24,936 bases of DNA from a virus. Both the position numbers and the translations under genes were made by a program. The stretch is taken from IMG/VR virus record IMGVR_UViG_3300018933_000012, positions 1 to 24,936 of that record. The stretch is one strand, 5' to 3'. Under the pieces are notes generated by a model that worked only from the letters and a program-made list of their open reading frames with translations, had not been told where the DNA came from and made no database searches. The stretch's first letter is position 1. Every line of letters starts with the position of its first letter. Positions 239 to 4,640 of this stretch are shown here, piece by piece.

Positions 239-679
239 CTACTGCTGGCGAAGGGTGTCGACGAGCTGCGGGAGTTGCTGGCGCGGGAAGTGCAGCAGTG
301 CGGCCTCGCTGAGTCCGTCGGGTTCGAGGGGCACGTTCATACGCCAGGAACCGGGGCGCCATGGGTGGCTGACGTGGTCGGCGAACGCGGGTGTCTTGGC
401 GAGCAGGGCCACGAATCGCATTGCGTCGGGGATCGGCATTTTGAGCAGGGCCCAGCCGCGGTGGTAGGCGATGAACGCCTCGCCGCCGTAGCCGAGCGGG
501 GTGTCGCGCTCGGCTCGCACGCCGGCGGTGGCCTCGCCTACGTCTTGGCAGCAGGCGGTCGTCGTGTACCCGAGGCGCCACAGTTCCCGGATGACGGGGA
601 CCATGTCCGCATCGATGGCGACGGGTTCCCCGGTACGGGTGGTGAGCGTCTCGTGCGGGTGGATCAGAGGATCGGTCAC
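239..679 (-). CDS. Hypothetical protein, last gene of the radical SAM cassette
   Basis: This encodes 146 residues from a GTG at 679, which overlaps the stop of the upstream kinase gene by four bases (GTGA). Translation is therefore coupled, and the GTG has a GGAGAG ribosome binding site. The N-terminal half contains a helix followed by LGYTTTACCQDVGE, with two adjacent cysteines. A similar pattern (a 'W-R-x-G-x-x-T-x-x-C-Q' stretch) is familiar from small actinobacterial and actinophage proteins of unknown function. The second half is mixed, with no signal peptide and no transmembrane segment. I do not recognise a family with an assigned activity. Being last in an operon with a peptide maturase and a kinase suggests an accessory or immunity role, which is inference only. 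Confidence 0.8.
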   Translation of the reverse strand: MTDPLIHPHETLTTRTGEPVAIDADMVPVIRELWRLGYTTTACCQDVGEATAGVRAERDTPLGYGGEAFIAYHRGWALLKMPIPDAMRFVALLAKTPAFADHVSHPWRPGSWRMNVPLEPDGLSEAALLHFPRQQLPQLVDTLRQQ

Positions 680-1506
680 GGGGTGCTCTCCTGGTCTTGC
701 GGCCGGCGGTAGCTCGCCCACTGGTCGGCTGCGGTCGCGAGGGCCCGTTTCCATTCGACTTCGGGGGCTTCCTCGGCGATGCCGGCCCAGAGGCGTTGCT
801 GCGCGGTGGCGAAGATGTCGAGTGCGCGCGTGGGGGCGGTGGACCATGTCGGGGTCTTGGCGGCCCACTGTTCGGCGTCTGCGGGGGTGTGGCCGGCGGA
901 GATGAGCCAGACGACCCAGCATGCGGCGTCGATCCATGCGGCGCCGCGGGTGGGCCATGCCCAGTCGACGACGCGGGCGGCGCCGTTCACGATCAGGACG
1001 TTGTCGGGTGTCCAGTCGGTGTGTAGCAGGGTCTCGCCGCGCAGCAGCTCGGCGTCGTCGGGGTGGTCGAGGTAGTCGGCGAGGCGCTGCTCGATGTGCT
1101 TCAGGTCGAGGTCGACGGGAGCGCGCACGCTGGACAGGTTGATGATCGCCTCAGCGACGAGCGGTAGGTCGTCTGAGTGGGGGCGGTAGTCGGCGGGGCG
1201 GCCGTCGAGGTGCTCGAAACCGAGCAGGTGCCACGTTCCGTCGTTGATCTCCCACAGCAGGCGTGGGGCGAGGCCGGCGACGTACGGGGCGATGGTGGCC
1301 TCGCGTTGCTGTGTCCACGCGCGGGGGTGGTTGCAGGTCAGTCCCTTGACGAACACGGGGCCGGTGCGGGTGTCGAGGGTGGCGGCGATTTCGGAGTTAC
1401 GGCCGGTGTCGGCGGTTCTTGCGGCGTAGATGGGCCCGGTACGGGCTGCGACTGCGTCGCGGGTGGCGTCGGGTAGGTCGTCCCATTGCTGTCTCATGGT
1501 CACCAC
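676..1506 (-). CDS. Aminoglycoside phosphotransferase-fold kinase
   Basis: The product has 276 residues and the architecture of the APH/choline-kinase superfamily. A nucleotide-binding strand region lies at about 35-55 with a candidate ATP lysine K54 (VFVKG). The catalytic loop is HTDWTPDN at 162-169, giving D164 as the catalytic base and N169 as a metal ligand. The second metal-binding aspartate is D181 in VVDWAWP. All key residues are present, so an active kinase is likely. The substrate is unknown: it could be a small molecule, the neighbouring peptide, or a toxic product that it inactivates. The chosen start is the GTG at 1506, because TACACT lies seven bases upstream, as expected for a leaderless mRNA. 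An ATG at 1497 is the alternative. The gene overlaps the next one by four bases. Confidence 0.85.
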   Translation of the reverse strand: MVTMRQQWDDLPDATRDAVAARTGPIYAARTADTGRNSEIAATLDTRTGPVFVKGLTCNHPRAWTQQREATIAPYVAGLAPRLLWEINDGTWHLLGFEHLDGRPADYRPHSDDLPLVAEAIINLSSVRAPVDLDLKHIEQRLADYLDHPDDAELLRGETLLHTDWTPDNVLIVNGAARVVDWAWPTRGAAWIDAACWVVWLISAGHTPADAEQWAAKTPTWSTAPTRALDIFATAQQRLWAGIAEEAPEVEWKRALATAADQWASYRRPQDQESTP

Positions 1507-1579: not shown

Positions 1580-1723
1580 CTAGTAAGGGTTGTCTTCGCC
1601 GCAGCCGCGCATCACCTCGTTGCCGGCGAGGGCGTCGAGGTCCTCGACGAACTCGATCTCGTCCTCGACGTCCGGCCGGTTGGTGATCGTTACGGCGACG
1701 GGTGCAGTCGCTACAGGGGCCAT
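1580..1723 (-). CDS. Candidate RiPP precursor peptide, 47 residues
   Basis: The peptide starts at the ATG at 1723, seven bases after an AGAGGAAG ribosome binding site that overlaps the stop codon of the radical SAM gene. The first 15 residues are Ala/Val/Thr-rich. Residues 16-36 form a strongly acidic stretch (NRPDVEDEIEF, then VEDLDALAGNE), as expected of a leader bound by a maturase. The tail, from about residue 38, is MRGCGEDNPY, with a single cysteine (C41) and a C-terminal tyrosine. Small size, leader-like acidity, a Cys/Gly/Asn-rich tail and tight coupling to a SPASM radical SAM enzyme together suggest a ribosomally made, modified peptide. There is no transporter or dedicated protease in the visible cassette. 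I cannot assign it to a named RiPP class. Confidence 0.75.
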   Translation of the reverse strand: MAPVATAPVAVTITNRPDVEDEIEFVEDLDALAGNEVMRGCGEDNPY

Positions 1724-1737
1724 GGGTGTACTTCCTC

Positions 1738-2838
1738 TCATGCGTGCTGGCAGTACCGGTCCAGGGGCGAGCCGGCTTTGCGGTACAGGGTCACGAGCGG
1801 CATGCAGGTGGTGCACGTCTTCTGGAGGGCGCATCCACTACACCCGCTGTGACGCTGTAGCGCTCGGTCGGCGGCGTTCCCGAGCCGGGCGAGACCCGCG
1901 ACCCCCTCTTTCAGGAGTGGAATCGGATGGTCACGGGAGACTTTGCAGACGGTCGCCAGGCCGAAGGGGGTCACGTTGAGGGACGTGTGGCCGGCGTCGC
2001 ATCCGGTGAAGGGGGTTCGGTTGTGCAGGTACTCGGGTGCCTGCTGCGCGAGGGGGTCGTCGTCGCCGGCGAAGGTGGGCGACATGTGCCGGTACTCGCG
2101 CACGCGTGGGGCGAACTCCTCGGCGAGGGCGCGCATTGCCTCGGCCTCGTGGGCGTTCTTGCGCGTGATCACGACACTGAGGGAGAGCGGCAGTTCGGCC
2201 TCGCGTGCGGCATGCAACCCGTGCATGAAGGATCGGAAGGCGCCGCGGCGGTTGGTGAAGGCGTCGAAGGTGGCTTCCGTGGCCCCGTACACGCTCATGG
2301 TGACGCGGTAGGGCCGGCGTGTGCTGAGCAGGGCGCGCATACCTGGCCGGCCGAGCGTTGACCCGTTCGTGAGGATTTCCACCATCATGCCGAGGTCGTA
2401 GGCGAGTGCGTACGTCTCGGGGAAATGGCGGTCGATGGTGCACTCGCCGCCGCCCAGCTCGATCCACAGCACGCCGGCGTCTCGAAGGATGTGCAGCAGA
2501 CGCTCGCGGGGCTCCCACGCGAGTCCGTCGTGCTTCTTCTCGCCGTAGACGCAGTGGTCGCAGCTCCAGTTGCAGCCGGCGTTGACCTCGTACGAGGCGC
2601 GGCCGTGGCCGTAGGGCGAGGGGTCGCGGATCAGTACGGCGGTGCTCGGCTGCTTGTCGCCGAGGTCGAGCTGCCACCGCCGGCGGGCGGCGGTGCGCAG
2701 CCAGTCGGGCAGGGTCTCGTCGGCGACTGCTTGGCGTAACTCCAAGTAGTGGTGTCCCTTGATCTTGATTCCGCTGGAGTCCCCGGGGCGTAGCACGAGG
2801 TACTCGTCGAGAAATGGGCTTGCGATGAGCTCGTGCAT
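1738..2838 (-). CDS. Radical SAM/SPASM peptide maturase
   Basis: The 366-residue protein has the canonical CX3CX2C radical SAM motif at C89, C93 and C96 (CNWSCDHC), followed by a GGGE motif at 129-132 typical of SAM binding. The C-terminal part carries cysteines at 280, 298, 333, 336, 342, 345 and 363, the spacing of a SPASM domain with auxiliary iron-sulfur clusters. The first 80 residues are not part of the barrel. They contain a predicted strand-rich LVLRPGDSSGIKI segment followed by helices, which could be a fused peptide-recognition (PqqD-like) domain. SPASM enzymes commonly install thioether or carbon-carbon crosslinks in peptides. The 47-residue ORF starting 15 bases downstream is the obvious substrate. 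ATG 2838 has GGAGG upstream. The exact reaction cannot be read from sequence. Confidence 0.9.
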   Translation of the reverse strand: MHELIASPFLDEYLVLRPGDSSGIKIKGHHYLELRQAVADETLPDWLRTAARRRWQLDLGDKQPSTAVLIRDPSPYGHGRASYEVNAGCNWSCDHCVYGEKKHDGLAWEPRERLLHILRDAGVLWIELGGGECTIDRHFPETYALAYDLGMMVEILTNGSTLGRPGMRALLSTRRPYRVTMSVYGATEATFDAFTNRRGAFRSFMHGLHAAREAELPLSLSVVITRKNAHEAEAMRALAEEFAPRVREYRHMSPTFAGDDDPLAQQAPEYLHNRTPFTGCDAGHTSLNVTPFGLATVCKVSRDHPIPLLKEGVAGLARLGNAADRALQRHSGCSGCALQKTCTTCMPLVTLYRKAGSPLDRYCQHA

Positions 2839-2853
2839 GGTGCCTCCAGCAGC

Positions 2854-3276
2854 TCAGATGGACTCGCCGTGTGCGGGCGTGCCGTGGGGCGGAACGATAG
2901 GCAGCAGGCGGTGATCGGGTACGCGGAAGCGGAGGAACGGCCGGATTGCCCACTCAACCCAGGCTGATCCGTCGCTGAGGGAGAAGCCGCACGGTTCGCG
3001 GCGGTGCAGTGCGGCGACTGCGTGCAGGCAACCGCCGCTGTCGGTCCATTCGAGTGCGCGGTTTCGCTCTATCGGGGGAAGGGATGAGGCGAGGGTTCGC
3101 ACCTCGATCCGCACTCGGCGGATCGCCTCGGCTGGTGTGCTGACCTCGTAGCGGTTCGCCTCGTCGACTTTGCCGGCTGTAAGCGAGCGGTACCGCACTC
3201 GCTCGCACCAGAAAGCCACGTCGACCGTTGGCAAGGTTGCTCCGGGTGATCCCACTCGGGGGCGCAACGCGTGCAT
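2854..3276 (-). CDS. Hypothetical protein, first gene of the radical SAM operon
   Basis: This encodes 140 residues from the ATG at 3276, which has GGAGGGCAG upstream. An in-frame GTG at 3294 is a weaker alternative. Its stop lies 15 bases before the radical SAM start. The protein has a middle section rich in Arg/Glu (IRRVRIEVRTLASSLP). The C-terminal half contains WTDSGGCLHAVAAL and a hydrophobic-aromatic stretch WVEWAIRPFLRF, suggesting a small mixed alpha/beta domain. There is no signal peptide or clear membrane segment. I do not recognise the family. Its first position in the operon suggests a partner of the maturase or a regulator of the cassette. Confidence 0.75.
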   Translation of the reverse strand: MHALRPRVGSPGATLPTVDVAFWCERVRYRSLTAGKVDEANRYEVSTPAEAIRRVRIEVRTLASSLPPIERNRALEWTDSGGCLHAVAALHRREPCGFSLSDGSAWVEWAIRPFLRFRVPDHRLLPIVPPHGTPAHGESI

Positions 3277-3583: not shown

Positions 3584-3775
3584 TCAGATCAAGTTGTCGA
3601 ACTCGCCATCCTTGGCGCCCAGCAGGAAGGCGAGCAGCTTCGTGCGGCTCGTCCGCACGACCACGTCGGGATTGTCGCTCTCGCGCATGAGGATCTCGCC
3701 GCCGTGCTCGGCGAGCTCCAGGCAGTTGCCCTCAGAGTCCGTCGAGTATGAGGACTTTTGCCAGTTGATTTCCAC
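3584..3775 (-). CDS. DUF397 protein (WhiJ/Scr2-type partner)
   Basis: The 63-residue product has the DUF397 signature: WQKSSYS at 5-11, GNCLELA at 16-22, then a strand with RESDNPD and a C-terminal AFLLGAKDGEF. In Streptomyces these small proteins are encoded beside XRE/DUF5753 regulators and act with them in development or antibiotic control, in some cases as toxin-antitoxin-like pairs. The start chosen is GTG 3775, because GAAGG lies about ten bases upstream. GTG 3784, only four bases past the XRE stop, is possible and would add three residues. The gene is cotranscribed with the XRE gene. Confidence 0.9.
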   Translation of the reverse strand: MEINWQKSSYSTDSEGNCLELAEHGGEILMRESDNPDVVVRTSRTKLLAFLLGAKDGEFDNLI

Positions 3776-3788
3776 TATTCCCACGCCT

Positions 3789-4640
3789 TCATACTTGTTG
3801 TGCAATTTCGCGGATAAAGTCGCGTGTTCGTTCGGGATCGAGTGATTTCTCTTCGGTTCGATCAAGAACTGCTCGGTAGTTGGCGAGACGCGTTTCGGCG
3901 TCGAGAAACGCGGGACCGTGCGGCGTATCCGTCTGCACCGTGTCGAGCTGGGGCACTACCCCATACACATAGAGTGTCGAGCTTCCGGCGTTCGGGAAAC
4001 CTCCGACGTGAAAGGGAATGACCCGCACGGTCACGTTGTCTCGTTCGGACTGCTTCAGCAGGTAGTCGAGCTGAGCGCGAGCGATCTCGGGGCCACCAAA
4101 GGACATGCGCAGCGCAGCCTCGTGGATCAAGAAAGTGCAGGTCGGCGCGTTCGGGCGGTCGAGCACGTCGCGGCGCTTCAAGCGATGCGACAGTCGTCGC
4201 CGAAGGGCTATCGGGCTGAGCGGTGGAACGGCTTCCTCGAAAACGGCCCGAGCGTAGTCCTCGGTCTGAAGCAAGCCAGGCATATGCATGATCTGAACGG
4301 CGCGAAGCGCACGCGCATGGTGCTCCAGCTCGGCCAGATCGAGCGCGCCGGCGGAAAGATCGTTGCGGTAGTCCTCCCACCATCCCTTTCCGCGTTCCTC
4401 GGCCATGTCTGCGAGTGCCTCGACGTACTGCTCATCCGGGCATCCATACAGGCTCGCCCATGTGCGCACGCGTTCACCGCTCACGCCGAAACGGCCCGAC
4501 TCGGTGTTGCTGATGCTCGTCCGATCGGTGCTGAGCAGCGCCCCCGCATCGACGAGCGATAGGCCGGCGTGCTCCCTGAGCTTCCGCAGCTCCGAACCGA
4601 GCCGACGCTGCCGCGCGGTCGGGGCCTTCCTGGGTGGCAT
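3789..4640 (-). CDS. XRE-family regulator with DUF5753 domain
   Basis: This is a 283-residue regulator. A helix-turn-helix occupies about residues 14-70 (LRKLREHAGLSL, then LLSTDRTSISNTESGR), and a DUF5753 ligand or partner domain about 95-275 (MPGLLQTEDYARAVF; the FLIHEAALRMSFGG and VIPFHVGGFPNAGSS segments). This architecture is the Scr1/WhiJ-like class abundant in Streptomyces. The ATG at 4640 has a strong AGGAGGGG ribosome binding site. It is transcribed away from an RsbW-like ATPase gene and toward the DUF397 gene. The GTTGATACGCA motif 87 bases upstream is a candidate autoregulatory site, and the same motif lies in the promoter region of the radical SAM cassette. Confidence 0.92.
   Translation of the reverse strand: MPPRKAPTARQRRLGSELRKLREHAGLSLVDAGALLSTDRTSISNTESGRFGVSGERVRTWASLYGCPDEQYVEALADMAEERGKGWWEDYRNDLSAGALDLAELEHHARALRAVQIMHMPGLLQTEDYARAVFEEAVPPLSPIALRRRLSHRLKRRDVLDRPNAPTCTFLIHEAALRMSFGGPEIARAQLDYLLKQSERDNVTVRVIPFHVGGFPNAGSSTLYVYGVVPQLDTVQTDTPHGPAFLDAETRLANYRAVLDRTEEKSLDPERTRDFIREIAQQV

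Follow-up and report, generated by a model that had tools for sequence, protein, structure and literature searches.

The window, that is, the whole stretch of 24,936 nucleotides analysed (IMG/VR record IMGVR_UViG_3300018933_000012), is most likely a temperate Streptomyces phage with a small gene cassette near its lysis genes. A tail-fibre gene and genes for an endolysin and a holin-like protein are followed by an HTH-DUF5753 regulator with a DUF397 protein and then by the cassette. This region contains the following features:

239..682, minus strand: small protein with the motif TTACCQDVGEA; in 11 of 81 loci, most of them from the window's clade, it succeeds or substitutes for the kinase
676..1503, minus strand: third gene of the unit, an APH-fold kinase of about 275 residues with VDW and the catalytic loop HTDWTPDNVL (from a structural model and motifs)
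1580..1723, minus strand: precursor-like peptide MAPVATAPVAVTITNRPDVEDEIEFVEDLDALAGNEVMRGCGEDNPY, 47 residues, with an acidic leader and the tail GCGEDNPY (ORF adjoining the enzyme gene, conserved tail)
1583..1603, minus strand: codons of the conserved tail CGEDNPY
1731..1739, minus strand: ribosome binding site GAGAGGAAG of the peptide gene, read directly in the DNA
1738..2838, minus strand: radical SAM/SPASM maturase of 366 residues with an N-terminal beta-beta-beta-alpha-alpha domain (residues about 1-70), a radical SAM core and a seven-cysteine SPASM-like C-terminus
2857..3276, minus strand: 140-codon ORF directly upstream of the enzyme gene, not conserved elsewhere and probably outside the unit
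3584..3775, minus strand: DUF397 protein, partner of the regulator (PF04149, E 3e-12)
3789..4640, minus strand: HTH-DUF5753 regulator, from one of the five HTH families that neighbour the cassette (NCBIfam/Pfam-type domain searches and neighbour profiles)

A radical SAM/SPASM enzyme and a short peptide

SPASM-domain enzymes follow the consensus CX9-15GX4C...CX2CX5CX3C...C in addition to the radical SAM motif CX3CX2C. In the window's enzyme, the latter is formed by Cys89-x3-Cys93-x2-Cys96, and seven cysteines are located towards the C-terminus (280, 298, 333, 336, 342, 345 and 363). These had been recognized as an intact CX3CX2C motif and seven SPASM-region cysteines in an earlier, sequence-only reading of this DNA, and all of them are invariant among 22 diverse homologues. 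Their spacing agrees with the consensus (C280-x12-G-x4-C298, C333-x2-C336-x5-C342 and C363) except for one step, C342-x2-C345, where the consensus has x3. Judged by these motifs, the enzyme is assigned to the SPASM-domain radical SAM proteins.

A structural model of the enzyme was well predicted for the N-terminal domain and the radical SAM core and poorly for most of the SPASM part (pLDDT below 50). A Foldseek search with this model returned SkfB as the top match (E 6.9e-15), followed by BlsE; viperins, EpeE, CteB, SuiB and PqqE were matched as well, and CteB, SuiB and EpeE, which are among the top matches, are other peptide maturases. The N-terminal domain was confidently predicted as three strands, two helices, a short helix and a strand, which is the same order of strands and helices as described for the leader-binding domain of SkfB (PMC6231123). 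A sequence profile of this domain found no known leader-binding (RRE) domain in the PDB. Assignment of the enzyme to a named radical SAM system was rejected: 40 NCBIfam models match, and none of the 25 matches listed reaches its cut-off. Likewise, similarity to prokaryotic viperins of antiviral defence is confined to the core (PADLOC E 3e-11, 41.6 bits, residues 83-245), and we rejected this family because the SPASM cysteines and the peptide partner do not fit.

The peptide gene begins with an ATG 14 bases past the enzyme stop codon, and GAGAGGAAG stands 7 bases 5' of this ATG; an alternative start, an ATGA overlapping the enzyme stop, would add six residues. The ORF at 1723..1580 agrees with its earlier description as a tiny downstream frame with its own ribosome binding site and an acidic leader-like part. 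The borders of the unit, drawn at 1580-3276 in the sequence-only reading, had to be revised. The enzyme and peptide genes remain within it, the ORF at 3276..2857 was dropped as it is not conserved in other loci, and the unit continues downstream to position 676; neither the downstream kinase nor the phage setting had been part of that reading.

Distribution of the cassette and conservation of the peptide tail

We collected 162 loci with the enzyme gene from Streptomyces, other actinomycetes, phages and plasmids, using genome contigs, sampled Streptomyces genomes, wider samples at the order, class and phylum level, viral contigs, phages and plasmids as sources. The enzyme is present in 72 of 393 sampled Streptomyces genomes and, in the wider samples, which overlap, in 67 of 392 (order), 17 of 395 (class) and 6 of 396 (phylum). 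Twenty viral contigs besides the window carry the cassette, and many copies are chromosomal. In the isolated Streptomyces phage Success (NC_073472.1, locus L051) it lies at one end of the genome, where genes 3-2-1 are annotated only as oxidoreductase, hypothetical protein and kinase. It was also found near a recombinase of the phage-plasmid phiDSM40276, on a plasmid with a phage portal gene and on other plasmids. In two annotated plasmids (L053, L261), a gene 5' of that of the enzyme codes for a DUF6415 'natural product biosynthesis' protein. A search of phage DNA with a piece of one locus (L073) gave only chance-like mycobacteriophage matches. The attB site of phage Samy is located inside a radical SAM gene described as weakly SplB-like (PMC12924846); this gene was set aside as a related case, no peptide partner being mentioned in that publication.

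A short, tail-bearing peptide gene lies directly 3' of the enzyme gene in 160 of the 162 loci. The first collection contributed 139 of 141 loci (137 distinct enzymes), with five of the 139 peptides identified by eye owing to a variable tail or a split enzyme match (L207); the loci collected later contributed 21 of 21, including two read by eye (L269 and L271), the first of which ends in CSCTASSDQVYNN, without the Pro. One exception, L010, lies at a contig end, where GGCGDDNPY is visible and no stop codon is reached, and the other, L218, has a truncated enzyme. As a control, we scanned 40 regions taken from the same genomes (520 kb) in six frames, and the tail pattern was absent. The pairing of enzyme and peptide is far from chance, and the locus holds what generally characterizes RiPPs, a short gene-encoded precursor with a conserved core beside a peptide-modifying enzyme. 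Two outcomes had been named as counting against the proposal of an unassigned RiPP-like cassette, namely homologous loci without a conserved tail and close homologues of the enzyme without an adjacent peptide ORF; both were looked for and neither occurred, which supports the proposal. We regard it as very probable that the peptide is the substrate of the enzyme.

Overall, the tail follows the pattern C-x(2-7)-D-[N/Q]-P-[Y/H/F/N]. In the main set of 131 distinct peptides, the Cys and the Pro are each present in 131 of 131, Asp at -2 in 128 and Asn/Gln at -1 in 130; the net charge is acidic in all peptides. Two tail types can be distinguished, GC[G/N][D/E/N]DNP[Y/F] with at most one extra residue and CxC...DD[N/Q]P[Y/H/F/N]. 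Because about half of the tails have the two cysteines of CxC, a ring built on a single Cys is not the general pattern. One or two cysteines were counted in 129 of the 131 peptides and three in the remaining two, and an assignment to SCIFF-type ranthipeptides, with their six-cysteine precursors, was rejected on this count. Some peptides (L004, L049) contain tandem copies of the leader segment (A)VEITPRP, resembling a duplicated recognition sequence.

The tail ends in His, Asn or Phe in about 28% of the loci. The radical chemistry itself is therefore unlikely to take place on the terminal Tyr, and these tails rule this residue out as a universal crosslink site. Of the features whose conservation the sequence-only reading had proposed to examine, the tail Cys was thus found everywhere and synteny with the enzyme almost everywhere, and the Tyr proved not to be universal. 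Among the chemistries it had listed, those at the Cys and the Asp-Asp-Asn/Gln-Pro stretch fit best, and those involving Tyr became unlikely. A modification at the Cys-bearing tail appears probable. Among close relatives, the tail codons differ mostly at synonymous positions, with 227 synonymous versus 32 non-synonymous codon differences in one clade and 105 versus 8 in a second clade; this excess is weaker in the window's own clade, in which tail pairs of unequal length blur the count.

Searches of six diverse peptides against NCBIfam and of the window's peptide against Pfam gave no curated family model. In the open-access literature, outside which most subscription journals lie, no relevant match was obtained for six tail sequences, for DNPY together with RiPP or for related gene sets. 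The cassette is widespread and is best interpreted as a new RiPP-like family, apparently undescribed in the family libraries and the open literature searched.

The third gene and the terminal tail residue

Gene calling and clustering at 81 loci revealed a kinase-like protein or a GNAT after the peptide, and one of the two is present 3' of the peptide gene in 136 of 141 loci. They alternate at the same position. The AlphaFold model of the kinase has a pLDDT of 87.5 and is placed by Foldseek among choline kinases and aminoglycoside phosphotransferases; the Pfam APH family (PF01636) scores just below its cut-off in two kinase homologues and does not match the window's copy. In the GNAT, an acetyltransferase domain can be recognised within the C-terminal third. 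For the small protein at 239-682, no Pfam, NCBIfam or PHROG match was found above threshold. A family of proteins of about 150 residues with a Cys-rich C-terminal tail (ADCSQCHSGCSESNY, ADCSQCHANCHNSPKYA) adjoins Phe-tail cassettes or lone kinase genes (L053, L058, L283, L285); these proteins could be a second substrate for peptide modification.

The kinase is linked to the last residue of the tail. Among the first 141 loci (tail unreadable in two, L207 read by eye), Tyr tails are accompanied by the kinase in 99 cases, by the GNAT in one (L167) and by neither in one, at a contig end, and non-Tyr tails by the GNAT in 36 cases, by neither in two, both Phe, and by the kinase in none. The 21 later loci comprise 12 Tyr tails with kinase, two Tyr tails with GNAT and seven non-Tyr tails with GNAT; Tyr with neither gene, non-Tyr with neither gene and non-Tyr with kinase each had a count of zero. 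The kinase was thus found with a Tyr tail only, in 111 of 111 loci (99 + 12). At loci without the kinase, the residue is His, Asn or Phe in 45 of 48, and the GNAT accompanies a Tyr tail in 3 of 46. A two-way rule, in which Tyr goes with the kinase and any other residue with the GNAT, is broken by the Tyr tails with GNAT at L167 and L266/L267; the one-way rule that the kinase needs a Tyr holds without exception.

On the enzyme tree, three independent tail switches (3-4 pairs) all track the third gene and are too few for a significant sign test. No tail-residue change was counted over 26.4 substitutions per site with the kinase, compared to five over 9.4 without it (binomial p 0.0013), a post hoc contrast obtained by parsimony on pruned trees, the hypothesis having arisen from some of the data used to test it. 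Two sister GNAT loci, L265 and L266, are nested near kinase/Tyr loci, and the tail ends in Phe in one and still in Tyr in the other; such a pattern would be expected if the tail were freed from constraint once the kinase had been replaced. Moreover, 56 of 91 Tyr tails contain no Ser or Thr after the first Cys, which leaves the Tyr as the sole hydroxyl. On balance, these patterns lead us to favor, somewhat, the tail Tyr as the target of the kinase.

Proposed mechanism, alternatives and known systems

We think it likely that the window carries a compact RiPP-like cassette on a temperate Streptomyces phage, in which the enzyme modifies the Cys-bearing tail and a kinase or GNAT step follows. The acidic, variable N-terminal part of the peptide would act as a leader gripped by the N-terminal domain of the enzyme, which would modify the C-terminal tail, most plausibly through a bond between the Cys sulfur and a carbon within the Asp-Asp-Asn/Gln stretch. 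Such thioether chemistry is proposed as in sacti- and ranthipeptides; that the modification is a thioether is a tentative suggestion by analogy. The kinase would then phosphorylate the tail Tyr, which in most such tails is the sole hydroxyl, and in other lineages the GNAT would acylate another group; this step may either complete the product or block it as self-protection. The HTH regulator next to the cassette probably controls its expression. Inspection by eye of the list of larger neighbour clusters from 81 loci revealed no recurring transporter or peptidase family. Because no dedicated exporter or protease recurs beside the unit, the product is probably active within the cell or lysogen that makes it, or else host enzymes trim and release it.

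Alternatively, the modified peptide might be antibiotic-like, and the kinase or GNAT purely a self-resistance enzyme that inactivates it. APH and AAC enzymes inactivate aminoglycosides, and an acetyltransferase inactivates microcin C. The exchange of kinase and GNAT at one position and the frequent location of the cassette on mobile elements would suit such a role. In at least two genomes, close kinase homologues occur without the enzyme or peptide nearby, like resistance genes; the kinase may therefore have a use of its own, and these lone copies give a slight lean towards self-protection. Of the lone kinase loci, L281 (G014:C48) and L282 (G017:C66), the former has retained a NUDIX-like gene and an HTH regulator, and a VapB/VapC-like pair stands where the enzyme would be, the gene names being assigned by eye. 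Self-resistance is, however, at odds with the lack of a recurring exporter and with the two Phe-tail loci that have neither kinase nor GNAT, and the strict link between kinase and Tyr would be equally expected for a tailoring enzyme. We consider pure self-resistance a serious possibility, though the less probable one.

The regulators raise the question of whether the peptide serves as a signal for the neighbouring HTH protein, for instance in adjusting lysogeny or differentiation. Members of five HTH regulator families adjoin 64 of 68 cassettes with full flanks versus 2 of 40 control regions, a contrast somewhat flattered because the test loci themselves were used to build the regulator profiles. 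They are often divergent from the cassette at a constant distance, and many have a helical-repeat-like C-terminal half (by eye), similar to peptide receptors. Against this, the regulator family shifts between lineages while the tail is almost constant, which would be unusual for a ligand-receptor pair: the DUF5753-HTH kind is found beside only 19 of 81 cassettes, the others having different HTH families. Furthermore, there is no export system, and we know of no peptide ligand for DUF5753 regulators. A signalling role thus appears unlikely.

We assign a still lower probability to an intracellular addiction or toxin-like module, in which the unphosphorylated product would be toxic and the kinase its antidote, so that the phage or plasmid is kept. 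The mobile location and the near-constant presence of a kinase or GNAT after the peptide agree with such a module, and XRE-DUF397 pairs have been put forward as toxin-antitoxin systems (PMC6262351); yet kinase homologues exist alone, two loci have neither kinase nor GNAT, and many cassettes are chromosomal. Finally, a small redox cofactor derived from the peptide is highly improbable: the short C-terminal tail and the weak overall similarity of the enzyme core to MftC and PqqE recall mycofactocin and PQQ biosynthesis, but the scores are far below the family cut-offs (64.5 bits versus 265 for MftC and 50.5 versus 381 for PqqE), the tail Tyr, which would have to be constant for the Glu...Tyr pair of a PQQ precursor, can be replaced by His, Phe or Asn, and neither Mft companions nor partner dehydrogenase or peptidase genes recur.

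Returning to the modified-tail cassette with a kinase or GNAT step, a broader and more speculative interpretation, which we regard as doubtful, is that of a new class of radical-SAM-modified peptides spread by temperate phages and plasmids in Streptomyces. Here a dedicated APH-fold kinase, or a GNAT in sister lineages, would act on the tail (the kinase by phosphorylating its Tyr) and thereby make or disarm a compound serving lysogen biology, be it competition, immunity towards other phages or signalling. If the cassette has been interpreted correctly, it would add peptides whose conserved core is Cys...DNPY as a class, link an APH-type kinase to a tyrosine of a peptide and provide an example of phages carrying modified-peptide genes as cargo. 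The cassette is common and small, and the proposal is testable in one experiment.

The cassette resembles the sactipeptide and ranthipeptide systems of SkfB, CteB and PapB in its radical SAM/SPASM-Twitch maturase with a predicted wHTH-like N-terminal domain, SkfB being the best structural match, and in a short precursor whose C-terminal portion contains Cys. It differs from them in its tail of one or two Cys followed by D-D-N/Q-P-Y/H/F/N, in having no exporter and in the kinase or GNAT after the peptide, and a thioether would be shared with them by analogy only. Mycofactocin and PQQ systems likewise combine a related radical SAM enzyme with a short peptide ending in Tyr, whereas none of their companion genes accompanies the cassette, whose Tyr is replaceable. 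The window's regulator pair is of the same kind as the XRE-DUF397 pairs of Streptomyces (Scr1/Scr2). The third gene shares its fold and catalytic motifs with APH, choline kinase and fructosamine kinase; unlike these enzymes, with which its identity is about 8-18%, the presence of the cassette kinase is tied to the Tyr of a peptide.
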